Assembly: GCF_002804065.1 (NCBI RefSeq)
Contig: NZ_CP024955.1
Location: forward strand, 2,170,001 to 2,234,000
DNA length: 64,000 bases
Reading direction: 5' to 3'
Source: Kyrpidia spormannii
Lineage (GTDB): Bacteria; Bacillota; Bacilli; Kyrpidiales; Kyrpidiaceae
The stretch's first letter is position 1, and each line of letters opens with the position of its first letter. The position numbers were made by a program, and so were the translations under genes. Below are positions 5,255 to 49,364 of the stretch, piece by piece. The notes beneath the pieces were generated by a model. That model made no database searches and had not been told where the DNA came from. It saw only the letters and a list, made by a program, of their open reading frames with translations.

Positions 5255-7006
5255 TCACCCCTGTCGCCGGGAGCGAAAGGCACTCCACAGCACCCCCAAC
5301 GCCAGCACGGCGGATCCCCAGAGCACAGCTGCCGCGAGACCTCTCCCGCCGGGCACGACAGCGAGCCCTGCGGGACCGGAACTGACAAGCACCGCTCCCC
5401 CAACGAAAAATCCTGCGGACATCAGGCCGAGGGTGAATCGACTGACCATCCGGTTGGTGGAGCGGACGACATCCGGGGACAGCCGGCCTTCCACCACCAA
5501 CTTCAGGTCGTTCCACACGAGGCGATCGAGAATCTTATTCAGCCTGCGGGGGAGAGTGCCGATCAGTTTTGCGGTTTCCGACACGAGGCTGGCGTTGGCG
5601 CGGTAATTGAACCGCCTGCCCAGCCACCGGCGCAGAATCTGCACATCGGCGCTTTCCACCACTGTGTGATAGGTGATCTCGGGACAAAGCCACCGGGCGG
5701 TCCCTTCTGCCGCTGAAAACCCCTTGGCCCAAAGCGCCAATCCGTTGGGAATTCGGCAAGCATTTTTCATGCCGATGGTGATGATTTGAATCACCATATT
5801 GCCCCAGTTGTACCGACTGGCCTGCTCGCTGTTGACATAGTGAATCAACATCGAACGCAACTGGTCTTTTAGATGAATCGGATTCGTGTACACCGTCGGC
5901 TGAATGATGTCCAGGGCGGCCTCGGCGGCATCTTCCGCTTGGTTCAACCGACAGTGCAACAACATCCGAAAAATCGCTTCAGTATGCAGGCTATCCATCC
6001 GTCCCACCATGCCCCAATCGAGCATGACCGCTTTCCTGCTGTGCCGGTCGATCATGATGTTGGAACCGTGGGGATCAGCGTGATAAAATCCTTCGACAAA
6101 CGTTTTTATATAATAATGCGCCAAATCCACCATGCGCGTAAATCTCTCTTCAAAATCCAAAAAATCGACGGGAAATTCCTTGAGATTCCATCCATCGATA
6201 TATTCCATGACCAACACGTGCTCGGTAACTTCGTAAATGGTCGGTACGTGCAAAGTTTCAAATTCAGCGGCGATTCGTCGGTGCTCCTCCATATTTCGCG
6301 CTTCAATTCGCATATCGAGCTCGTTCTTCGAACTGCTGTAATAGTCGTCGATCAGCCCGGGCAAGTCCACGGACGCAGCCAGTCGCGGAGGCAGGCGCCG
6401 TTGGATGCGGCGCACTAGCCTTCGGATAATCGCGATATCCGTTTGAAAAAGGTCGCCCACTAAAGGGCGCACGACTTTCACCGCACATAAGCGACCATCT
6501 TTGAGCTTTGCCTTGTACACTTGGGCAAGGGACGCCGAGCCGATGGGGTCCGGATCAATCCATTCAAAGGTATCCAAACCCCCGGGAAGTTCGTCCTCCA
6601 TGACCGCGGCCAAATACGGAAAAGGCATCGGTGGCACTTCGTCCAGGAGTTCCGCCAACTCCTGGGTAATGGGTTCCGGGATCAGCTCTTGGCGGGTGAC
6701 CAGCACCTGACCCAGTTTAATAAAGGTGGGCCCCAGCTCTTCAAACACCAAACGCAACCGCCGACCAATCTGGCGAAGTTCGTCCTCCTCTGCCCGGGCA
6801 CGTCGGCCGAAAAGGCGGAGTCGGCCCCGGTCCTGGAACAGATGGAGAAGACCGTGTTTGGACAGAGCCCGGGCGATGGCCCGATACCGCCGTCCCCTGG
6901 TGATCCCCGCCCGCATCGCGGAAATCCGTCGGGATATCTCTTCTTTCTCTTCGAGGCTCAGTGCATGGATAGGGGCCCGCACGTATTCCGCCGACATCGT
7001 CCCCAT
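5255..7006 (-). CDS. ABC1/AarF/UbiB family protein kinase-like protein
   Basis: The product is 583 aa. The ATG at 7006 was chosen because AAGGAGGAGAGG sits just upstream; the open frame continues further but lacks a ribosome site. Family marks are all present: KLGQ (about 97–100) in the N-terminal extension, an Ala-rich nucleotide loop GSASLAQVY (about 156–164), the AVKV lysine (about 177), HADPHGSN (about 309–316) and LDWG (about 329–332) as catalytic and metal loops. Two C-terminal hydrophobic helices anchor it in the membrane. Relatives act in quinone or isoprenoid lipid homeostasis as atypical ATPases or kinases. The role here is unknown; it sits between two envelope gene sets. Confidence 0.9.
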   Translation of the reverse strand: MGTMSAEYVRAPIHALSLEEKEEISRRISAMRAGITRGRRYRAIARALSKHGLLHLFQDRGRLRLFGRRARAEEDELRQIGRRLRLVFEELGPTFIKLGQVLVTRQELIPEPITQELAELLDEVPPMPFPYLAAVMEDELPGGLDTFEWIDPDPIGSASLAQVYKAKLKDGRLCAVKVVRPLVGDLFQTDIAIIRRLVRRIQRRLPPRLAASVDLPGLIDDYYSSSKNELDMRIEARNMEEHRRIAAEFETLHVPTIYEVTEHVLVMEYIDGWNLKEFPVDFLDFEERFTRMVDLAHYYIKTFVEGFYHADPHGSNIMIDRHSRKAVMLDWGMVGRMDSLHTEAIFRMLLHCRLNQAEDAAEAALDIIQPTVYTNPIHLKDQLRSMLIHYVNSEQASRYNWGNMVIQIITIGMKNACRIPNGLALWAKGFSAAEGTARWLCPEITYHTVVESADVQILRRWLGRRFNYRANASLVSETAKLIGTLPRRLNKILDRLVWNDLKLVVEGRLSPDVVRSTNRMVSRFTLGLMSAGFFVGGAVLVSSGPAGLAVVPGGRGLAAAVLWGSAVLALGVLWSAFRSRRQG

Positions 7007-38384: not shown

Positions 38385-38414
38385 ATTGTACTATAACAGG
38401 TCGAGAGTAGACAA
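38385..38414 (-). promoter_or_regulatory. promoter of the zinc-ribbon gene with shared 12-mer
   Basis: Minus strand TTGTCT (38409–38414), 18 nt, TACAAT (38385–38390). The plus-strand 12-mer GTACTATAACAG (38388–38399) overlaps the -10. The same 12-mer occurs at 43848–43859 in the leader of the second malate synthase. Confidence 0.55.
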
Positions 38415-38562
38415 TACTGTTTCACGCACAATCTCGACCAAACATCGAAGGGCAGGGCGTGCCCGATCGGAACCGCCTTCCCTTCTCTCTTTGAACACGG
38501 TACAATAAATTCATCCGCCCGAGCCTCTCATCTTCGATTGATAACAAAGGCAGGTGTGAAAC

Positions 38563-40551
38563 GTGGCCAACATGCCAGAGGGTTCCCTGCTGTGGGAAGG
38601 GTCCGAAGTCTTCAAACACAATACGAATTTATATCGTTATATGCAATGGTTGAAAGAAACACGAGGTTTGACTTTTAGTTCTTATGAGGAACTTTGGAGG
38701 TGGTCAGTGTCCGACTTGGACGCTTTCTGGACTTCGATTTGGGACTTTTTTGATATCAAGGCCTCTAAGCCCTATACCCGGGTTTTGGCATCCCGTTCCA
38801 TGCCCGGCGCCCAGTGGTTCCCTGGCGCCGAACTCAACTACGCTGAACATGCTTTGCGCCACGACTCGAACGAACAACCGGCCATCCTCTTTCAATCCGA
38901 AGTCCGGCCTTTTGAGTCGGTCTCCTGGAAACAGTTGAAGGAACACGTGGCTTCGGTGGCTGCCGCCTTGCGGAATATGGGCGTACAACACGGGGATCGG
39001 GTGGTCGCCTATCTACCCAATATGCCCGAGGCCGTGATTGCCATGCTCGCCTCGGCCAGTATCGGGGCGGTTTGGTCGAGTTGTTCGCCAGATTTCGGAA
39101 GTGTCAGCGTGATCGATCGATTCCGGCAGATTGAACCGAAGGTGCTGTTTGCCATCGATGGATACCGCTACAGCGGCAAGGCTTTCGACCGCCGACCCGT
39201 GATCCAGGAGTTGCAGCAGGCACTGCCCACTTTGTCGCACACCGTCCTGGTTCCCTATCTAAACCCGGAAAGCGGCGTCGAGGGACTTGCCAACGCCCTT
39301 CTCTGGCAAGACATTCTGGGACAAAACAGCACGCTCCAGTTTGAGCAAGTCCCCTTTGATCATCCGCTATGGGTCTTGTACTCCTCCGGCACCACCGGCC
39401 TGCCGAAAGCGATCGTCCAAGGGCATGGCGGCATTCTGCTCGAACATCTGAAATCGATCGGTTTACACCTCAACCTCACTCCGGACGATCGGTTTTTCTG
39501 GTTCACCACCACCGGCTGGATGATGTGGAATGTCGTGGTGAGCGGCCTCCTGGCGGGATCCACCATCCTGCTGTACGACGGCAGTCCCGGATATCCAGAC
39601 CTCAACGTCCTATGGGAGTTCGCCGAGAAGACTGGAATGACCGTTTTTGGAACCAGCGCTGGATACCTGACTTCCTGCATGAAAGCGGGAATCGAGCCAG
39701 GCCGGGACTACGATTTGTCACGCCTCGTAAGCATGGGTTCCACGGGTTCGCCGCTTCCGCCCGAAGGTTTTGAGTGGGTCTATCAGCATGTCAAAAAAGA
39801 TCTGTGGCTCGCCTCGACCAGTGGAGGTACGGACGTCTGTTCTTCCTTTGTCACAGGTTGTCCGATTCTTCCGGTCTACTCCGGGGAGATTCAATGCCGC
39901 AGCCTGGGCGTAAAGGTCGAAGCCTTCGACCCCGACGGCCGGCCGGTGATCGATGAGGTCGGCGAATTGGTCATCACGGAACCGATGCCTTCTATGCCCC
40001 TCTATTTCTGGAATGATCCGGACAACGCCCGGTACCGGGACAGCTATTTCGATATGTACCCCGGTGTATGGCGCCACGGAGACTGGATTAAGATCACTCC
40101 CCGGGGCACGGCGATCATCTACGGCCGATCCGACTCCACCATCAACCGCCTGGGCGTTCGGATGGGCACGAGTGAAATCTATCGGACAGTCGAAAGCTTA
40201 CCTGAGGTCATGGACAGTTTGGTCATCGATCTCGAAGGAATGGAAGGATCTTCCTTTATGCCGTTGTTTGTCGTCCTTCAAGAGGGGATCGAGTTGGACG
40301 ACGGGCTTAAGAAGAAGATTCGAGACCAAATCCGAAAGAATCTCTCGCCCCGCCACGTTCCGGATGAGATTTATCAAATTCGGGAAGTGCCCAGGACTTT
40401 AAACGGAAAGAAACTGGAGGTCCCGATCAAGAAAATCCTGCTGGGCACGCCGGTTCACAAGGCGGTCAACCTGGATTCTACCGCCAATCCCGATGCGGTA
40501 AACTTTTTCGTTCAACTGGCCGAGCAACTCAAGGCCAAACAGAACTCTTGA
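38563..40551 (+). CDS. acetoacetate–CoA ligase (acetoacetyl-CoA synthetase)
   Basis: The product is 662 aa, from GTG 38563. It activates acetoacetate with ATP and CoA to acetoacetyl-CoA. The AMP-binding loop is LYSSGTTGLPKAIVQGHGG; the acyl-adenylate motif includes STSGGTD and RSDSTINRLGVRMG; the C-terminal domain carries the ligase Lys near LNGKKLEVPIKK. Length and the N-terminal NLYRYMQWLK block match AacS rather than acetyl-CoA synthetase. It fits a lifestyle using ketone bodies or polyhydroxybutyrate and feeds the acetyl-CoA and glyoxylate routes encoded downstream. Confidence 0.92.
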   Translation: MANMPEGSLLWEGSEVFKHNTNLYRYMQWLKETRGLTFSSYEELWRWSVSDLDAFWTSIWDFFDIKASKPYTRVLASRSMPGAQWFPGAELNYAEHALRHDSNEQPAILFQSEVRPFESVSWKQLKEHVASVAAALRNMGVQHGDRVVAYLPNMPEAVIAMLASASIGAVWSSCSPDFGSVSVIDRFRQIEPKVLFAIDGYRYSGKAFDRRPVIQELQQALPTLSHTVLVPYLNPESGVEGLANALLWQDILGQNSTLQFEQVPFDHPLWVLYSSGTTGLPKAIVQGHGGILLEHLKSIGLHLNLTPDDRFFWFTTTGWMMWNVVVSGLLAGSTILLYDGSPGYPDLNVLWEFAEKTGMTVFGTSAGYLTSCMKAGIEPGRDYDLSRLVSMGSTGSPLPPEGFEWVYQHVKKDLWLASTSGGTDVCSSFVTGCPILPVYSGEIQCRSLGVKVEAFDPDGRPVIDEVGELVITEPMPSMPLYFWNDPDNARYRDSYFDMYPGVWRHGDWIKITPRGTAIIYGRSDSTINRLGVRMGTSEIYRTVESLPEVMDSLVIDLEGMEGSSFMPLFVVLQEGIELDDGLKKKIRDQIRKNLSPRHVPDEIYQIREVPRTLNGKKLEVPIKKILLGTPVHKAVNLDSTANPDAVNFFVQLAEQLKAKQNS

Positions 40552-40656: not shown

Positions 40657-41751
40657 TCAGGCGTGCTTTTTCCGAAACTCCACCATATAATCCCGCAATG
40701 CGGCGCAGTGCTCTACGGGTACCGCATTGTACAAAGAAGCTCGGCATCCACCCACCGACCGGTGACCATTTAGCCCGACAAAACCCTCCGCCTTTGCACC
40801 GTCCAGGAATTCCTTCTCGAGTTCCGGCGTGGGCAATCGGAAGGTGACATTCATCAGCGACCGGCTCGTCGGTTCGGCATGGCCCAGGTAGAAATCGGGA
40901 TTGTCATCGATCACTTTGTAAATCAGCCCCGCCTTTTCGCGGTTTCGGCGCTCCACTGCCTCCACCCCGCCTTGTCCTTTGACCCACTTCAACACCAGGC
41001 CCATCATGTAAATCCCGAAGGTCGGCGGAGTATTGTACAGCGAATTGTTTTTTGCGTGGGTCCGGTACTGGAGCATCGTCGGCAGATCTTCCGGCGCTCT
41101 CTCCACCATGTCTTTCCGCACAATCACCAGGGTCACCCCGGAGGGGCCCAGGTTTTTCTGGGCTCCGGCGTAAATCAGCGCAAACTGGCGAACATCGATC
41201 TTTCTGGATAGGATATCGCTGGACATATCGGCCACGAGAGGCACCGGATCGGTGTCCGGAAAACTGGCCCACTCGGTCCCGTAGATCGTGTTGTTAGACG
41301 TCACATGCAGATAGGCGCTGTCCCTGCCGAAGGAAATCTCCTCCGCCCCCGGGATGCGCCGATAATGACCGTCTTTGGTGCTGGCCGCCACAAAAGTCTC
41401 TCCGAGTCGCTGAGCCTCTTTCAATGCCTTTTCGGACCAGCTGCCGGTCAAGACGTAGCCCGCCGCTTTGCCCTTCGGGAGAAAGTTCATCGGAACCATG
41501 GCAAACTGCAAACTGGCTCCGCCCTGGAGGAACAACACGTCGTACCCCTCCGGCACCCCAAGCAGCTCCCGAACGAGGGCGGCCGTTTCGTTGTGGATCG
41601 CCTCGTAGGTTTTGCTGCGGTGGCTCATCTCCATGACGGACATCCCCGTGCCCCCGAAGTCGACGAACTCCTCCCGGGCCTGCTCCAAAACCTCCAACGG
41701 AAGGGCGGCCGGCCCGGCATTAAAGTTTAACGCGCGTTTCCCCTGAGACAT
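40657..41751 (-). CDS. serC: phosphoserine aminotransferase
   Basis: The product is 364 aa from ATG 41751 (AAAGGAG upstream); the frame runs further up without a ribosome site. It converts 3-phosphohydroxypyruvate to phosphoserine with glutamate and PLP, in serine and PLP synthesis. Features are NFNAGPAALPLEVLE at the N-terminus, the Schiff-base Lys in GAQKNLGPSG and substrate Arg in GHRSVGGCRASLYN. No serA is adjacent. Confidence 0.95.
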   Translation of the reverse strand: MSQGKRALNFNAGPAALPLEVLEQAREEFVDFGGTGMSVMEMSHRSKTYEAIHNETAALVRELLGVPEGYDVLFLQGGASLQFAMVPMNFLPKGKAAGYVLTGSWSEKALKEAQRLGETFVAASTKDGHYRRIPGAEEISFGRDSAYLHVTSNNTIYGTEWASFPDTDPVPLVADMSSDILSRKIDVRQFALIYAGAQKNLGPSGVTLVIVRKDMVERAPEDLPTMLQYRTHAKNNSLYNTPPTFGIYMMGLVLKWVKGQGGVEAVERRNREKAGLIYKVIDDNPDFYLGHAEPTSRSLMNVTFRLPTPELEKEFLDGAKAEGFVGLNGHRSVGGCRASLYNAVPVEHCAALRDYMVEFRKKHA

Positions 41752-41848
41752 GATCGTCTGCTCCTTTCCACTGGCCCGCTTGTCTTTCACTATACCACTT
41801 CCCCGCACTTCCAGAACGCTTTTTCGGCCGATTTCCCGTGTCAAAATG

Positions 41849-41878
41849 TTTACGCTCCCCTCGCCTTCATGGTATGAT
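41849..41878 (+). promoter_or_regulatory. promoter of the first malate synthase
   Basis: TTTACG (41849–41854), 18 nt, TATGAT (41873–41878). The predicted start near 41885 leaves a leader of about 130 nt that contains the inverted repeat at 41896–41943. Confidence 0.55.
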
Positions 41879-41895
41879 GAATATAAATAGAACAG

Positions 41896-41943
41896 TGTTC
41901 CGTATTACAGAACACCGCGTAGTAAAAACTGTATCACGGAACA
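41896..41943 (+). promoter_or_regulatory. large inverted repeat in the malate synthase 1 leader
   Basis: TGTTCCGTATTACAG (41896–41910) and CTGTATCACGGAACA (41929–41943) are inverted copies matching at 13 of 15 positions, 18 nt apart. Smaller palindromes (GTGTTC/GAACAC; GAACAGTTC) overlap them. Lying just downstream of the promoter, it may be a double operator or an RNA stem. Confidence 0.6.
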
Positions 41944-42016
41944 GTTCTGACACATTATTTAACTGATTGGGGAGTCCCCGGGATCCACAAAAGGGGATTC
42001 GAAGGGAGGAGAAAGG

Positions 42017-43612
42017 ATGGCTGAGTGGCCGCAAGGGGTCGAAGTGATCGGTGAAGTGACACCGGAATACGGGGAGATTTTAACCCCAGAAGCCTTGGCG
42101 TTCGTGGCAGATCTGCACCGCCGATTTGACGAAAGGCGCCGGGCATTGCTCGCCGACCGGGCAGAGCGCCAGAAGCGCCTCGACGCCGGGTGGCGCCCGG
42201 ATTTTCCTGCAGAGACGGCGGAGATCCGGGCCGGGGATTGGACGGTGGGGTCGATTCCCGCCGATCTTCAGGACCGGCGGGTGGAGATCACCGGCCCGGC
42301 CGGGGACCGGAAGATGGTCATCAACGCCCTCAACTCCGGCGCCAAGGTGTTCATGGCAGATTTTGAGGACGCTAACTCTCCCACCTGGGCCAATACCGTG
42401 GGCGGACAGGTCAACCTTCGAGACGCCGTCAACCGCACCATCACGTATACCAGCCCCGAAGGGAAACACTATGCCCTTAAAGACCAGGTCGCCGTTCTCA
42501 TGGTCCGGCCTCGGGGATGGCATTTGGAAGAGAAACACGTCCGGGTGGACGGCCGCCCGGTCTCCGGCGCCTTGTTTGACTTTGCCCTCTACCTGTTCCA
42601 CAACGCGAAAAACCTGATCGCCCGGGGCACGGGGCCGTATTACTATCTGCCGAAGATGGAAAGTCGGCACGAAGCCCGGCTGTGGAACGATGTATTCACC
42701 TTTGCTGAAGACAGGATGCACTTTCCCGTCGGGACGATCAAAGCGACAGTGCTCTTGGAGACGATCATGGCGACCTTTGAAATGGACGAGATGCTGTACG
42801 AGCTCCGGGATCACATCGTCGGCATGAATTGCGGGCGTTGGGATTACATTTTCAGTTACATCAAGCGCTTCCGGAATCAACCCGACGTGATTTTTCCCGA
42901 TCGCAATCTCGTGACGATGACAGTGCCCTTTATGCGTGCCTATACTCTCTACACGATCAAAACCTGCCATCGGCGCGGAGCTTTTGCCATCGGCGGCATG
43001 GCGGCCCAGATCCCGGTGAAAAATGACCCGGCCGCGAATGAAGAGGCTTTTGCGAAAGTCCGGGCGGACAAGGAACGGGAAGCCCAGGATGGCCACGACG
43101 GCACTTGGGTGGCTCACCCCGGTCTCGTTCCCGTTGCAATGGAAGTGTTTGACCGTCTGATGCCGGGCCCGAATCAACTGAGCCGGAAACGGGAAGATGT
43201 TCACGTGACGGCGGACGACCTGCTGGCGATCCCCGAAGGGCCGATCACCGAACAGGGGCTTCGCAACAACGTAAGCGTAGGAGTCCAGTACATCGAAGCG
43301 TGGCTTCGGGGTAACGGCGCCGTTCCGATTTTCCACCTCATGGAGGATGCGGCCACGGCGGAAATCGCCCGGGCCCAGGTATGGCAGTGGATTCACCATC
43401 CGAAGGGGATTCTGTCGGATGGCCGCAAGGTGGACGCCGCGTTGTTCCGGCAGATTCTGACCGAGGAATTGCAGAAAATCAAAGAGAACCTGGGGGAGGA
43501 GCGATTCGCCCGCGGCAAGTTCGACCAGGCCGCGGCACTGTTCACAGATATGTCCCTTCGGGACGACTTTGAGGAATTCCTCACCCTTCCCGGTTACGCG
43601 TACCTGGATTGA
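42017..43612 (+). CDS. aceB: malate synthase, copy 1
   Basis: The product is 531 aa, from ATG 42017 behind GGGAGGAG. It condenses glyoxylate with acetyl-CoA to malate (malate synthase A type). Signatures include [43 protein letters not shown] and [12 protein letters not shown] close paralogue follows about 290 nt downstream, then isocitrate lyase. Length is normal and no catalytic motif is missing. A 514-aa antisense frame over it is a codon-bias shadow. Confidence 0.95.
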   Translation: MAEWPQGVEVIGEVTPEYGEILTPEALAFVADLHRRFDERRRALLADRAERQKRLDAGWRPDFPAETAEIRAGDWTVGSIPADLQDRRVEITGPAGDRKMVINALNSGAKVFMADFEDANSPTWANTVGGQVNLRDAVNRTITYTSPEGKHYALKDQVAVLMVRPRGWHLEEKHVRVDGRPVSGALFDFALYLFHNAKNLIARGTGPYYYLPKMESRHEARLWNDVFTFAEDRMHFPVGTIKATVLLETIMATFEMDEMLYELRDHIVGMNCGRWDYIFSYIKRFRNQPDVIFPDRNLVTMTVPFMRAYTLYTIKTCHRRGAFAIGGMAAQIPVKNDPAANEEAFAKVRADKEREAQDGHDGTWVAHPGLVPVAMEVFDRLMPGPNQLSRKREDVHVTADDLLAIPEGPITEQGLRNNVSVGVQYIEAWLRGNGAVPIFHLMEDAATAEIARAQVWQWIHHPKGILSDGRKVDAALFRQILTEELQKIKENLGEERFARGKFDQAAALFTDMSLRDDFEEFLTLPGYAYLD

Positions 43613-43697
43613 TCGGCCACTCACCCAGTGAACTTCGTGCCCGCGGGGATTTCACCTGCGGGCATGTTTTTGTGCGCCGTTTTTTTGCGCTCACCTC

Positions 43698-43725
43698 TTG
43701 GCAGATCGCTCACCTGTGTTATAAT
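43698..43725 (+). promoter_or_regulatory. promoter of the second malate synthase–isocitrate lyase operon
   Basis: TTGGCA (43698–43703), 16 nt, TATAAT (43720–43725). The transcript would start near 43732, giving a leader of about 170 nt. Confidence 0.75.
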
Positions 43726-43752
43726 AGATGCGTAAATTGTTCCTGTGTTATA
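43713..43752 (+). promoter_or_regulatory. tandem CCTGTGTTATA operator-like repeats
   Basis: CCTGTGTTATA occurs twice, at 43713–43723 and 43742–43752, 29 nt start to start. The first overlaps the -10 and the second lies just past the predicted start, a classic repressor layout. Related CTGT..TA elements occur in the leader of malate synthase 1. Confidence 0.65.
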
Positions 43753-43781
43753 CTTCAGATGCCGCCGGGCGCCCCGTGTTA

Positions 43782-43849
43782 GGGCCTTGGCTGGGGAGAA
43801 CCATCGGGGGTGAGGCCCGGCCACAGGAGGAGGACTGTGCCCCTCCTGT
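43782..43849 (+). promoter_or_regulatory. structured leader RNA of the second malate synthase
   Basis: GGGCCT (43782–43787) pairs with AGGCCC (43813–43818). A second perfect stem, ACAGGAGG (43823–43830) with CCTCCTGT (43842–43849), follows. There is no T-run after it. The second stem hides an AGGAGG-like sequence, though the true ribosome site (AAAGGAGGG) is further down. I match it to no known riboswitch. Confidence 0.45.
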
Positions 43850-43905
43850 ACTATAACAGTTATTTCCTTTGATGTGTGTATCAATATACGAAAAGGAGGG
43901 ACACC

Positions 43906-45510
43906 ATGCCAGAAACCGTCGCGTACCCTGCTGGCGTCCAGGTCACCGCACCTGTTGACGAATCCTTTCGGGAAATCTTGACTCCTGCGGCACTGGAGTT
44001 CGTCGCCGATCTCCACCGTCAATTCAACGGTCGGCGCCAGGCACTCCTGGCCGAAAGACAGAAGCGCCAAGCGGCCATCGACGGGGGTCAGATGCCGGAT
44101 TTTCCGGCTGAGACTGCCGACATTCGCCAGGCGGATTGGACGGTGGCACCGATCCCGGCCGACCTTCTGGACCGCCGGGTGGAGATCACCGGCCCGGCTG
44201 GAGACCGGAAGATGGTCATCAACGCCCTGAACTCCGGCGCCAAAACCTTTATGGCGGATTTTGAAGACGCCAACTCCCCCACGTGGGAAAACACCGTCGG
44301 GGGTCAGATCAATCTCCGGGATGCCGTGCGCCGGACGATCCGGTACGTCAGCCCGGAAGGCAAGCGGTACGAGCTGAAGGATCGAACGGCAGTCCTGATC
44401 GTGCGGCCCCGGGGCTGGCATCTGCCGGAGAAGCACGTTTTGGTCGATGGCGAACCGATCTCCGGCGCCCTGTTTGATTTCGGCCTGTACTTTTTTCACA
44501 ATGTCCGGGAGTTGCTGGAGCGGGGGACGGGGCCGTACTTTTACCTTCCCAAAATGGAAAGTCGCTTCGAGGCCCGCCTGTGGAACGATGTGTTCAATGT
44601 GGCCCAAGATCGCCTGGGGATTCCCCGGGGCACCATCAAAGCCACGGTGTTGATCGAGACGATCCTCGCGGCCTTCGAGATGGACGAGATCCTGTATGAA
44701 CTCCGGGATCACGCCGCTGGACTCAATTGCGGCCGGTGGGACTACATCTTTAGCTTCATCAAACGCTTTCGGAACCGCCCCGAGGTGATTCTGCCGGACC
44801 GCGGCTTGGTGACCATGACCGCGCCTTTCATGCGGGCTTACACGCAGTTGACGATTAAGACCTGTCACCGTCGCGGGGCGATGGCCATCGGGGGGATGGC
44901 CGCGCAAATCCCGGTCAAAAACGATCCGGCCGCCAATGAAGAGGCCTTCGCCAAGGTGCGGGCGGACAAGGAGCGGGAAGCGACAGATGGCCACGATGGG
45001 ACCTGGGTGGCCCATCCCGGGCTGGTGCCTGTGGCAATGGAAGTCTTTGACCGGTTGATGCCCACGCCGAACCAACTGGATCGCAAGCGGGAAGACGTAC
45101 ACGTTTCGGCGGCCGACCTCATCCAGGTACCCGAGGGGCCGATCACCGAGCAGGGCTTGCGCACCAACATCAGTGTGGGGATTCAATATATCGAAGCCTG
45201 GCTGCGGGGATCCGGAGCCGTGCCGATTTTTAACTTGATGGAAGACGCGGCCACGGCGGAGATCTCCCGGGCCCAGGTCTGGCAGTGGATCCGCCACCCC
45301 CGCGGGGTGCTGGAGGACGGGAGAAAGGTCACGGTGGAGTTGTTCCGGCAAGTCTTGGACGAGGAGTTGAACAAGATCAAGGCGGAGCTGGGAGAAGACC
45401 GATTCGCCGGTGGACGGTACTCGGAAGCCGCCGAACTGTTCAGCCGCTTGACCACCAGCGATTCCTTCGCCGAATTTTTAACCTTGCCCGGGTACGATTT
45501 GATCGATTGA
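43906..45510 (+). CDS. aceB: malate synthase, copy 2
   Basis: The product is 534 aa; ATG 43906 follows AAAGGAGGG. It is closely similar to copy 1 throughout, sharing [40 protein letters not shown] and [16 protein letters not shown]. Divergence is greatest at the N-terminus and the last 60 residues. It is transcribed with isocitrate lyase (45-nt gap), whereas copy 1 has its own leader. Retention of both with intact motifs suggests separate regulation or kinetics rather than decay. Confidence 0.95.
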
Positions 45511-45555
45511 CTAACCGGATCAGGAATATTTTCACAAGGGAAAGGATGTTCGCCG

Positions 45556-46833
45556 ATGATCGACAAGCAAGAAGCGGAAGCGTTAGAGCGCAGTTGGGAA
45601 ACAGATCCCCGGTGGAAAGGGATCGTTCGGACCTATTCGGCGGAAGATGTGCTACGGCTTAGAGGCTCGATTCGAATCGAGCACACCCTGGCCCGGATGG
45701 GAGCCGAGCGCCTGTGGCATCTGCTCCATACGGAGCCTTACGTCCCCGCCCTGGGGGCTTTGACCGGGAATCAAGCGGTGCAACAGGTCAAAGCCGGACT
45801 CAAGGCGATCTACCTGAGCGGCTGGCAGGTGGCGGCGGACGCCAATCTCGCCGGGCAGATGTATCCGGATCAGAGCTTGTACCCCGCCAACAGCGTTCCC
45901 CACGTGGTAAAACGGATCAACCAGGCTCTGCAACGGGCGGATCAGATCCACCACATGGAGGGCAAAGATGATATCTACTGGTTTGCGCCCATCGTGGCAG
46001 ACGCCGAGGCTGGATTCGGGGGGCCGCTGAACGTTTATGAGCTGATGAAAGCGATGATCGAGGCGGGAGCGGCGGGCGTCCACTTTGAAGATCAGTTGGC
46101 CGCCGAGAAAAAGTGTGGCCATATGGGAGGCAAGGTCCTGATCCCGGCTTCCCAGGCTATCCGGAATTTGACCGCGGCCCGGTTGGCGGCGGACGTGATG
46201 GGGGTGCCGACGATTTTGGTGGCCCGGACCGACGCGTTGGCGGCCACGATGATCACCAGCGACATCGACCCGCGGGATCAAGGATTTATCACCGGCGAAC
46301 GCACCTCCGAAGGATTCTACCGGGTGCGCAACGGGCTGGAGGCGGCCATCGCCCGGGGACTCGCCTATGCTCCGTACGCGGACATGATCTGGTGCGAAAC
46401 CTCGGAGCCGAACCTCGAAGAGGCGCGCCTGTTCGCCGAGGCGATTCATGCAAAATTCCCGGGCAAGCTGTTGGCTTACAATTGTTCGCCGTCCTTTAAC
46501 TGGAAGCGGAAACTGGACGACGCCGCCATCGCCGACTTCCAGAAAAAGTTGGGACAGATGGGATACAAGTTCCAATTCGTCACCCTGGCTGGTTTCCACG
46601 CCCTCAATTTCAGCATGTTCGATCTGGCGCGGCAGTACAAAGAGCGCGGCATGGCCGCCTACGCCGAGCTGCAACAGCGGGAATTCGCCGCCGAAGTGCA
46701 CGGGTACACGGCGACCAAACACCAGCGGGAGGTCGGAGCCGGGTATTTTGACGAGGTGAGCATGGTCATCTCCGGGGGGACTTCCTCCACCACGGCGCTC
46801 ACCGGTTCCACCGAAGAGGAGCAGTTCGTCTAA
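45556..46833 (+). CDS. aceA: isocitrate lyase
   Basis: The product is 425 aa, from ATG 45556. It splits isocitrate to succinate and glyoxylate, the first step of the glyoxylate shunt. The catalytic loop [11 protein letters not shown] holds the active-site Cys187. Metal and substrate motifs [19 protein letters not shown] and the late YNCSPSFNW are present. It is the last gene of the plus-strand block; a strong terminator follows inside the 3' end of the convergent lysR gene. Confidence 0.96.
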
Positions 46834-46855
46834 AATCTCCCTGGCCACAAAACTT

Positions 46856-47863
46856 TCACCCGCCCTGGCCATCATTCGGCCCAGGGCGGGCCTCCTTTTC
46901 GATGCCGGCGCGTTTCATGATGGGCGTGCATCCGCCCTCCTGAATCTCATTCTCCCATCGGCTGGTGCCAAATCGACGAATGGTCTCCGATTCCTCCCGC
47001 AAAACGGCAATAAAATGATCCACGGCCCGGATGTGATAACGGGTGCGATGGAGCACGGCAGAGAACGTGCGAAGAATCGGAAACTCGTGAAGTCGCAGGG
47101 TTTTCAAGGTCCCCAAGCGGATTTCTTTGACGACGGTCCACGTGGAAAGCAAGGAAACCCCGAGGCCGGCCTCCACCGATTCTTTGATGATTTGCGTGCT
47201 CCCGAGTTCCACGAGGGCCGCAGGAACAAGTCCCGTTGCCGAGAACATTTTATCGGCCGCCTCCCGGGTTCCGGAGCCATGCTCGCGCAGAATCCACCTT
47301 TCCCCAGCCAACTCCTCCGGCGTCGCTTCAGCGCGGCCAGCCAGCCGGTGGCTGGCGGGAACGACGACGCGAAGCTCGTCTTCAAAAAGGGGCAACACCT
47401 CCAGATCTGAATGATGCAGCCCCCCTTCCACAATCCCCACATCCTGTTCTCGCCGCAGGATGGCCTCGGCCACTTGAGTGGTATTCTCGATAGTGATCGC
47501 CACGGATACCTTGGGGTAGCGCTTACAGAATTGTGCCAGAATCCGGGGAAGGACATACTCTCCAAAGGTATAGCTCGCCCCGATGGCGAGATGGCCCCCT
47601 TCCCCTTGCACCAGGTCGTCCATAATCAGGCCGAGTTCTCGATAGGACTCGAGGATCTCTTCGGCCCGGTCCAGAAGAATTTCCCCAGCCCGGGTCAATC
47701 GCACGGTCCGGTTGGTGCGTTCCAAAAGCTTGACGCCAAACTTCTGTTCAAGAGCTTGGATCTGCAGGCTGACAGCTGGTTGAGTCATGTGAAGGGCTTC
47801 GGCGGCCCGGGAAAAATTGCGAGTCTTGGCCACGGTCGCGAAGATCAGCAGAGAATGATCCAT
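46856..47863 (-). CDS. LysR-family transcriptional regulator
   Basis: The product is 335 aa. ATG 47863 with GGAGG upstream was preferred over an in-frame TTG at 47878. An N-terminal winged helix-turn-helix (about 3–60: FSRAAEALHMTQPAVSLQIQ) is followed by a LysR effector domain with VSLLSTWTVVKEI. The C-terminal 15 residues (EARPGPNDGQGG) are encoded by the terminator stem shared with aceA. It is convergent with, not divergent from, the glyoxylate genes, so its control of them is possible but not implied. It is divergent from the glycosyltransferase. Confidence 0.9.
   Translation of the reverse strand: MDHSLLIFATVAKTRNFSRAAEALHMTQPAVSLQIQALEQKFGVKLLERTNRTVRLTRAGEILLDRAEEILESYRELGLIMDDLVQGEGGHLAIGASYTFGEYVLPRILAQFCKRYPKVSVAITIENTTQVAEAILRREQDVGIVEGGLHHSDLEVLPLFEDELRVVVPASHRLAGRAEATPEELAGERWILREHGSGTREAADKMFSATGLVPAALVELGSTQIIKESVEAGLGVSLLSTWTVVKEIRLGTLKTLRLHEFPILRTFSAVLHRTRYHIRAVDHFIAVLREESETIRRFGTSRWENEIQEGGCTPIMKRAGIEKEARPGPNDGQGG
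46859..46897 (+). terminator. intrinsic terminator of the aceB–aceA transcript
   Basis: CCCGCCCTGG (46859–46868) pairs perfectly with CCAGGGCGGG (46881–46890), followed by CCTCCTTTT. It lies within the last codons of the convergent lysR gene. Confidence 0.75.
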
Positions 47864-48095
47864 GGGAGACGCCTCCAACCCGTGATAAGTTCCTCCAATA
47901 CCTTCACCTTAACGGGATTGATTCGGCTTATCCATACACCGGGGGGTAGGAGTGGCAAGGAGTTCCTGACGATTTACCGAAATTCTGGAGGAAAAGCGGT
48001 ATCCTTTAGGTACAATTCCGCGGCAAACTCGACTACAATTCAAATCAGTGTATGAGAACGATAATCCGATTTCGATCGGCGGGAGGGATCAGTCG

Positions 48096-49364
48096 ATGAT
48101 TCGATGGCCGCGATGGATCGGATGGGTCATCCTGCTAGCATTCGTCCTGCGAATCGCCGCCTTAATGACGTACGGTTTGAGCCTCACGCTCCACAGCGAC
48201 GATCAAGGGTATGTTCACAGTGCGATCCGACTCCTGCAAACAGGCACCTTGACCTACCGGGGCCCCTCCGAGCCCGCGCGATTCGAACTCGACCCGACGG
48301 TGAAAATCATGCCGGGACAGCCATTTTTGTTAGCCGCGATCTTCTGGTTGTTCGGAACGGGAACCGTCGGTGTGTATGCTGCTAAAATCGCCACGATCCT
48401 CATCGGCCTGGCCGGGATCTATGGGATTTATTTGCTGGGGCGGTATTGTTTCGGCGAGGCGGCGGGTTTGATAGCGGCGCTCTTGTTAGCCGTCTCGGTT
48501 GAGCAGATTTTAACCGATAATTTGTTGTTAACGGAAACCCCATTTATGACGAGTCTAATCTATTTGGTGTACTTTTCGGTGAAACTGGCGTCAAAACGCA
48601 AACCGGTGTATTTTTATGCCTTGTTGTTCTTTTACCTTGTTGCGCTTTTCTTCAAAGCCACGGTCGCCCTGTATCCGCTGGTGTTGTTCGTGTATCTGCT
48701 GTTCAAAAGGTACCCTTTTCCTCTAATGATTCGCCAGGCGACCATAGCCCTTGTCGCGATACTTGTCGTTCTCGGGCCGTGGTGGGTGCGCAATTATGTC
48801 CATTATCATCAGTTTATCCCCCTGACCGCCGGCGATGGGAATCCCCTGTTAATGGGGACGTACCAGGGTGTGGGGTACCCGAACCACGAGCCTTTGTCCG
48901 CCCTCCTTCAGCGTCTCCAGACCGAATACCCGAACGCCGACTCTTTCACGTGGATGCAAGTCCAAAAAGAAGTGGCCATGGAGCGACTGCGGGAGTGGTG
49001 GCAAAGCAGCCCCGGGTCTCTCCTGTACAGCTATCTGCTTCGCAAACCGATCATCTTGTGGGGCGGAACGTTTTACTGGATCGAGATTTTCAGAATTAGC
49101 CCGGAGACGGTGGTGGTCCTCCACCATTTGGCGGTGGTCGGCGGGGTGGCAGGCGGACTTCTCTATCTGGCGCTCAACCGGCACAATCGTGGGGAAATGC
49201 TTTTCATCGCCATGGTGCTCGGGTATTTTACAGTTGTGTACAGCGTCTATTTTGTGTTTGGACGCTACAATGTCGCCGCGATGCCGTTAGTGTTTCTGGG
49301 AATCGGAGCCGGGACTGTTGCCGTCCGGAGGTGCGTGCGAATATGGGGTCATCCCTCCCAATAG
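48096..49364 (+). CDS. membrane glycosyltransferase (PMT/ArnT-like, GT-C fold)
   Basis: The product is 422 aa, from ATG 48096 behind CGGGAGGG. It has about eleven hydrophobic segments. An extracytoplasmic first loop carries the acidic HSDDQGYVHSA motif expected of GT-C enzymes that use polyprenyl-phosphate sugars. It would transfer a sugar to a wall polymer or protein outside the membrane. Acceptor and donor unknown. It is less GC-rich than its neighbours, which could indicate transfer. Confidence 0.8.
   Translation: MIRWPRWIGWVILLAFVLRIAALMTYGLSLTLHSDDQGYVHSAIRLLQTGTLTYRGPSEPARFELDPTVKIMPGQPFLLAAIFWLFGTGTVGVYAAKIATILIGLAGIYGIYLLGRYCFGEAAGLIAALLLAVSVEQILTDNLLLTETPFMTSLIYLVYFSVKLASKRKPVYFYALLFFYLVALFFKATVALYPLVLFVYLLFKRYPFPLMIRQATIALVAILVVLGPWWVRNYVHYHQFIPLTAGDGNPLLMGTYQGVGYPNHEPLSALLQRLQTEYPNADSFTWMQVQKEVAMERLREWWQSSPGSLLYSYLLRKPIILWGGTFYWIEIFRISPETVVVLHHLAVVGGVAGGLLYLALNRHNRGEMLFIAMVLGYFTVVYSVYFVFGRYNVAAMPLVFLGIGAGTVAVRRCVRIWGHPSQ

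Follow-up and report, generated by a model that had tools for sequence, protein, structure and literature searches.

Results

Organization of the MS2 promoter region

The window (the whole stretch of DNA analysed, 64,000 nucleotides) contains two adjacent type A malate synthase genes, MS1 and MS2, followed by an isocitrate lyase gene (ICL) that is separated from MS2 by a gap of 45 nt and is presumed to lie in the same operon (Table 1). A terminator-like site 3' of MS1 is taken to separate the MS1 and MS2 units. The promoter assigned to the MS2-ICL operon is the best promoter-like site in 41500-48100 by consensus scan. Its -10 element (43720-43725) lies inside the first of two copies of the 11-mer CCTGTGTTATA; the transcript start is predicted from the promoter sequence to be near 43732, and the second copy lies at about +10 to +25 relative to this predicted start. 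An earlier note on this DNA had described two identical 11-mers 29 nt apart, one on the -10 and one just past the predicted start, and our analysis confirms both the pair and its placement.

Table 1. Coordinates of the features at the malate synthase locus and of a related site in the window
Feature	Position	Strand	Basis or remark
Site of the same type, TTGTACTATAACAG, before acetoacetyl-CoA synthetase	38386-38399	+	Second-best site-2-matrix match in the window
IclR-type operator GAACAGTGTTCCGTATTACAGAACA before MS1	41890-41914	+	Agrees with the box seen in IclR-linked relatives
Malate synthase A copy 1 (MS1)	42017-43612	+	TIGR01344, 834.2 bits
Terminator-like site 3' of MS1	43636-43671	+	12-pair stem and T run
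MS2-ICL promoter of sigma-A type, TTGGCA-16-TATAAT, TG before -10	43698-43725	+	Consensus scan, 11/12
CCTGTGTTATA copy 1	43713-43723	+	Exact word match
Operator site 1, CTGTGTTATAATAG	43714-43727	+	Exact CTGTNNTATAAYAG match; overlaps -10
CCTGTGTTATA copy 2	43742-43752	+	Exact word match; 29 nt from copy 1, start to start
Operator site 2, CTGTGTTATACTTC	43743-43756	+	Contains TGTGTTATACT, a CcpN-type core
Leader site (site 3), CTGTACTATAACAG, 46 nt upstream of the start codon	43846-43859	+	Exact CTGTNNTATAAYAG match; top site-2-matrix score in the window
Malate synthase A copy 2 (MS2)	43906-45510	+	TIGR01344, 866.7 bits (cut-off 594.5)
Isocitrate lyase (ICL)	45556-46833	+	NF011645, 808.5 bits (cut-off 562)

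With up to one mismatch allowed, CCTGTGTTATA occurs just twice in the 64-kb window, against a mean of 0.23 in 100 dinucleotide shuffles, four of which held two or more matches. In the whole genome (3,352,175 bases) the exact word is found twice, both times here, and the reversed control pattern not at all; the genome-wide scan for which the earlier note had called returned no copies beyond the MS2 pair. Because base composition predicts only 0.8 occurrences per genome at random places, two copies within 40 bp are not a matter of chance.

The two copies can be assigned to a broader type of operator, a tandem arrangement of CTGTNNTATAAYA with a spacing of 29-33 nt, in which (i) the first site overlaps the -10, as CTGTGTTATAATAG does at 43714, (ii) a second CTGT site follows 29-33 nt downstream, at MS2 after 29 nt, and (iii) the pair stands directly before a malate synthase or isocitrate lyase gene, as is the case at MS2. 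Site 2 additionally has a weaker reversed match (11 bits) at 43745-43758, and a third site lies in the leader. Exact matches to CTGTNNTATAAYAG are limited to sites 1 and 3 in the genome (0.28 expected by composition), and all exact CCTGTGTTATA and CTGTNNTATAAYAG matches of the genome fall within 147 bp at MS2; with one mismatch, CTGTNNTATAAYAG has 13 matches genome-wide versus 18 in the control, and the count of this looser form is uninformative. Site 2, CTGTGTTATACTTC, does not fit the strict second-site form YTGTNNTATAACA, and the four family genomes (G000-G003) yield no strict pairs. Since the second sites in several relatives are equally degenerate, the strict form excludes too much to serve as a definition of the operator type. 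When the four family genomes are aligned, the two longest uninterrupted identities (15 and 9 columns) fall within the two cores, in CTGTGTTATAATAGA and TGTGTTATA, with site 1 inside the 15-column run and the leader otherwise diverged. Site 3 is kept in G001, has one change in G002 and is absent in G003.

Position matrices were trained on 80 of 118 operator loci, including those not before malate synthase or isocitrate lyase genes; they derive from the strict pattern, and its fixed positions are therefore built in. The four best matches to the site-2 matrix in the 64 kb are at 43846, 38386, 43714 and, reversed, 43745, where the best and the third-best score are each reached by one of 500 Markov-simulated windows, and the combined matrix orders the window as 43714, 43846, 6103 and 38386. 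The site-1 matrix ranks an unrelated AT-rich word (TTTTTATATAATAA at 6103) first and 43714 second, and its best score is reached by 9 of 500 simulated windows, which counts against an operator at these sites, as does the poor fit of site 2 to the combined matrix (only 3.5 bits versus 18.4 for site 1).

Beyond the DNA sites, a search of Rfam with 43600-44000 gave no match. Folding of the leader RNA gave z values of -2.1 here and -1.6 in G002. A GC-rich hairpin (43823-43849) just before site 3 overlaps its first bases and seems to persist in G002, where both arms have changes; it may be a leader RNA element, the sequences being too few for the claim of an RNA switch.

The same putative operator type before glyoxylate-shunt genes of relatives

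The strict pair pattern was found in 16 of 398 genomes of the class, and no control match was seen. Thirteen of the 16 pairs lie at gene starts of the glyoxylate-shunt enzymes or malate synthase G: ten at malate synthase A, two at isocitrate lyase, of which one is reversed, and one at malate synthase G. The other three have a YhfH gene on one side and a response-regulator gene on the other, and either may be the target. Among named genomes the pattern occurs in at least 118 stretches, and in 103 of the 118 listed a malate synthase (58) or isocitrate lyase gene (45) starts within 800 nt on the same strand, the 58 including one malate synthase G (L219) and one fragmentary match (L211). Nearly all listed stretches are titled Bacillaceae or related families; L158 is Clostridium, and the titles Pseudomonas and Chryseobacterium of L195 and L256 may be mislabels. 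With 27-34 nt allowed, the spacing in the 118 was 29 nt in 7, 30 in 50, 31 in 30, 32 in 30 and 33 in one, and 29-33 nt corresponds to about three helical turns. The 15 remaining listed stretches comprise four before a 107-aa protein with a Phage_ABA_S domain (L156, L170, L185, L212; the domain tested in one, homology in four), two beside YhfH (L169, L173), two before another small protein (L236, L242), three that end at the locus edge (L163, L182, L195), one inside a long frame (L158) and three with ambiguous gene context (L220, L230, L237). The repressor-like tandem geometry that had been noticed across the predicted start of the MS2 transcript is thus present before malate synthase or isocitrate lyase genes in many species.

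This distribution bears on the alternative that the repeats are only two extended -10 elements forming tandem promoters and that there is no operator. Both copies hold TGTTATA(A/C)T and copy 1 makes a good promoter; yet the promoter scan finds none at copy 2, the second site is not promoter-like in several relatives (CTGTAATATAACA, CTGTTCTCTAACAG, CTGTACTACTACAG), the spacing is held at 29-33 nt and there is an additional site in the leader. We consider this alternative improbable.

As side observations, a small CxxCxGxG zinc-finger-like open reading frame was seen by eye before malate synthase in G043 (L011, from -326) and G024 (L020), preceded in G043 by an operator-like site, and at L147, L148, L149, L169 and L173 the strict pair adjoins the YhfH gene with the response-regulator gene on the other side.

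MS1 carries an IclR-type box

To compare the two genes with their relatives, 33 upstream regions were scored: 28 of malate synthase genes (L003-L030, MS2 among them), a set from which L031, L032, matches with E values of 1e-4 to 1e-12 and partial second matches in G016 and G002 were left out, and five of second copies including MS1. At least two of the matrix training loci (L198, L216) are genomes also scored in this comparison (G038, G050). Seventeen regions are of the MS2 type, 10 of the IclR type, six of neither and none of both, with cut lines that were drawn after the scores were known and scores that leave a wide gap: the best site scores 13 to 24 bits in MS2-type regions, and IclR-type regions have a box with 0 to 5 mismatches and an operator score of at most 3.9. 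All 17 regions with the MS2 site type belong to the 28, MS2 included. Among the six regions of neither type, L026 and L027 belong to ICL-first operons with the promoter further upstream.

The IclR box consensus GAACANNGTTCYGTANTNCRGAACA was written by eye from the relatives and MS1, and the absence of mismatches at MS1 is in part built in; MS2 has nine mismatches at best and is therefore without an IclR-type box. Conversely, the MS2 operator matrix scores at best -8.3 bits in the MS1 upstream region. Allowing three mismatches, the IclR box occurs at two places in the genome (control 0), namely at MS1 and, with one mismatch, just before the likely start of a gene for an FAD-binding protein. The best models for this protein, the glycolate oxidase subunits GlcE and GlcD, are below cut-off, and its gene clusters with a lactate-permease-family (LctP-type) gene and an IclR-family gene (G000:C1:2617004-2617804), the latter 65% identical to the IclR gene beside malate synthase in a relative. 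Among the 28 loci, malate synthase adjoins an IclR-family gene in seven (by eye; one tested), and it is in such relatives that the box of MS1 is seen. Because the one other near match to this box in the genome is at a glycolate-oxidase-like gene clustered with an IclR gene, the most plausible role of MS1 is that of the glycolate copy, controlled by an IclR-family regulator, and MS2 looks like the acetate copy. The glycolate-use-like cluster is at G000:C1:2622428-2623915 and 2617004-2619502 (L295).

The earlier note had proposed that the repeats at MS2 share a CTGT..TA core with a repeat before MS1 and that one regulator acts on both copies. A common regulator of this kind, e.g. the product of the nearby LysR gene (46856-47878), is very improbable. 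It is favoured by proximity only and by the word CTGTATCA near 41930, but the similarity of the cores is weak and the clear repeat before MS1 is GAACAGTGTTCCGTATTACAGAACA; MS1 has an IclR-type box without an MS2-type site and MS2 an MS2-type site without an IclR-type box, none of the 33 regions combines the two types, and no LysR gene was conspicuous among the neighbour genes read.

Other sites of this type in the genome

That the motif might occur near ketone genes had also been anticipated, and a similar site is indeed found at 38386 before the acetoacetyl-CoA synthetase gene (38563-40551), with a degenerate CTGT partner 31 nt further at 38417 (by eye). Of the five occurrences of the word TGTNNTATAACA in the genome, three precede genes (for an acyl-CoA ligase, YhfH and acetoacetyl-CoA synthetase), one is in the MS2 leader and one is intragenic. 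This count is barely above that of the control (5 versus 3, whole genome), and it is the positions that are informative, not the count. CTGTTGTACTACAC and GTGTTATACTACAG lie 33 nt apart before the gene for the 45-aa YhfH protein (PF14149; G000:C1:2048536-2048582, L283), and TGTTATA/TATAACA-related words, which are weaker sites, lie before citrate synthase-family and pyruvate dehydrogenase E1 alpha genes (G000:C1:2381633-2381657 and 612129-612164).

Search for a linked regulator

No transcription factor linked to the operator was common to more than three of the 80 operator loci among the 45 neighbour clusters listed; regulators recognised by eye among these clusters were a response regulator in three and a sigma-54-type regulator in two. 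The perfect palindrome CTGTTATATAACAG, with which an autoregulated factor was sought, occurs in 10 of 299 genomes and with no factor gene: six places are at one spot in one genus, two lie between dnaA and dnaN (by eye), one is intergenic elsewhere and one intragenic. LipR was tried as regulator and rejected, its motif being LacI-type as far as the excerpts of the source go; excerpts of PMC10989752 place the LipR gene antisense to yhfH in B. thuringiensis.

CcpN as a candidate regulator

CcpN is a repressor of gluconeogenesis known from B. subtilis gapB and pckA, with the box consensus TRTGHYATAYW. We weighed the alternative that the MS2 sites are CcpN boxes and that CcpN represses MS2-ICL in this lineage, alone or with another factor. 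The genome encodes ccpN (NF053704, 331.7 bits, cut-off 260), whose neighbours are ppsR (PF03618) and, by eye, a ppdK-like gene. CcpN-type sites are found in 21 of 30 pckA loci of relatives and in 15 of the 30 ccpN loci read, and from the pckA, ccpN and gapB-like sites the word was calibrated as (A/T)T(G/A)TG(T/C/A)(T/C)ATACT. Two such sites 31 nt apart lie at a GAPDH gene of this genome, read by eye as gapB-like (21.6 and 13.1 bits), and two with the same spacing before its own ccpN (25.5 bits and a weak 5.7 bits, own ccpN being in the training set); no CcpN box was seen at its own pckA.

At MS2, site 2 fits TRTGHYATAYW, site 1 has one mismatch and site 3 does not fit. Site 2 is the top CcpN-matrix match in the window even with family f1 left out of the training, but its score is reached by 44 of 500 simulated windows. 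Similarly, the genome has 31 matches to TRTGHYATAYW versus 23 in the control and 27 expected, and among these 31 the core TGTGTTATACT occurs twice, at MS2 site 2 and just before ccpN. Several features argue against a CcpN box: (i) instead of ACT, sites 1 and 3 as well as the orthologous sites of G003 and G037 have AAT, AAC, ATT or ATA at their end, (ii) the base before TGT is C in MS2 and A or T in 36 of 36 CcpN-type training sites, and (iii) in G010, G038 and G050 the CcpN-type site (at ccpN or pckA) and the malate synthase sites differ within the same genome. Among the orthologues a CcpN-type site is present in G000-G002 but, with no ACT at the end of the sites of G003 and G037, it is not conserved throughout. 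Given a score that 44 of 500 simulated windows reach, the missing ACT end in G003 and G037 and the differing words, CcpN appears to be a rival or partner and not the main MS2 regulator, and we regard control of MS2-ICL through CcpN boxes as rather unlikely. For site 2, which carries the CcpN core, CcpN is nevertheless a candidate.

For Lactobacillales, excerpts of PMC3616900 predict that ppdK, ccpN and fbp are controlled by CcpN, and excerpts of PMC7936320 report higher gapB and pckA transcripts after ccpN deletion in Geobacillus thermoglucosidasius, both of which fit the CcpN assignment in this genome. A link of CcpN to malate synthase was not seen in the search results and excerpts covered, and a literature search with the string TRTGHYATAYW found no paper.

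In a separate observation, the start of ccpN (G000:C1:1074036, L047) and of its 29 relatives (L048-L076) seems to be an AUC or AUA codon. In the own ccpN an in-frame TGA lies three codons before ATC GAA TTG, and the codons separating them include neither ATG nor GTG nor TTG. Of the 30 ccpN loci, 11 are without a canonical start in the up to 12 codons read upstream. A rare start codon of this kind would add a second control on CcpN.

Discussion

The tandem element at MS2 is a real, conserved feature of a glyoxylate-shunt promoter. Combining its geometry with the comparison across relatives, by which a repressor is well supported, we suggest that the element is likely a repressor operator pair. 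More specifically, we consider it probable that each 11-mer forms the core of one site in a tandem operator through which MS2-ICL is repressed by a trans-acting factor distinct from the regulator of MS1.

Starting from the observed sites and their rarity, conservation, spacing and gene context, we infer binding, repression and the signal. As the -10 is covered by site 1 and the distance to site 2 further downstream is about three helical turns, two dimers would sit on one face of the DNA and block promoter opening or escape. This block would apply during growth on carbon sources other than acetate or fatty acids, and the leader site, site 3, may act as an auxiliary site. The regulator would be encoded elsewhere in the genome and would recognise a partly symmetric site close to CTGTNNTATAACAG.

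A broader scenario, which we put forward tentatively, is that of a dedicated glyoxylate-shunt repressor of Bacillota that has not been described before. Its paired operator would be conserved from Kyrpidia-like bacteria to Bacillaceae and Sporolactobacillaceae; further targets of the repressor would be acetoacetyl-CoA synthetase, an acyl-CoA ligase and YhfH, a small protein rich in cysteine; the malate synthase for acetate would thereby be set apart from that for glycolate under IclR control; and CcpN would be taking over the second site in this lineage. We rate this scenario as less probable than the operator pair at MS2.

No description of the tandem operator was found in the literature searched, including the excerpts of PMC3616900, PMC7028823, PMC10448178, PMC5299652 and PMC7936320, and glyoxylate-shunt switching in Gram-positive bacteria is little described in that literature. 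The conserved operator pair in at least 118 named stretches provides a concrete bait for the MS2 regulator, and the presence of two adjacent malate synthases on different operator types suggests why the genome keeps both.

The putative MS2 operator shares with the CcpN regulon the paired sites, 31 nt apart at the genome's own GAPDH and ccpN genes, the TGTGNTATA core and a carbon-source logic. Unlike CcpN sites, the MS2 sites begin with CTGT, mostly end in AAT or AAC, are partly symmetric and have glyoxylate-shunt targets. The IclR control of glyoxylate-shunt and glycolate genes is paralleled by the IclR-type box of MS1 and by the IclR-family gene in the glycolate cluster, whereas MS2 departs from the IclR control of malate synthase genes in being without such a box. 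In E. coli, AceB of the shunt and GlcB of glycolate use are under different regulators. The two malate synthases described here differ from AceB and GlcB in that both are of type A and adjacent and the shunt copy is without an IclR-type box; like AceB and GlcB, they would be split between acetate and glycolate use.
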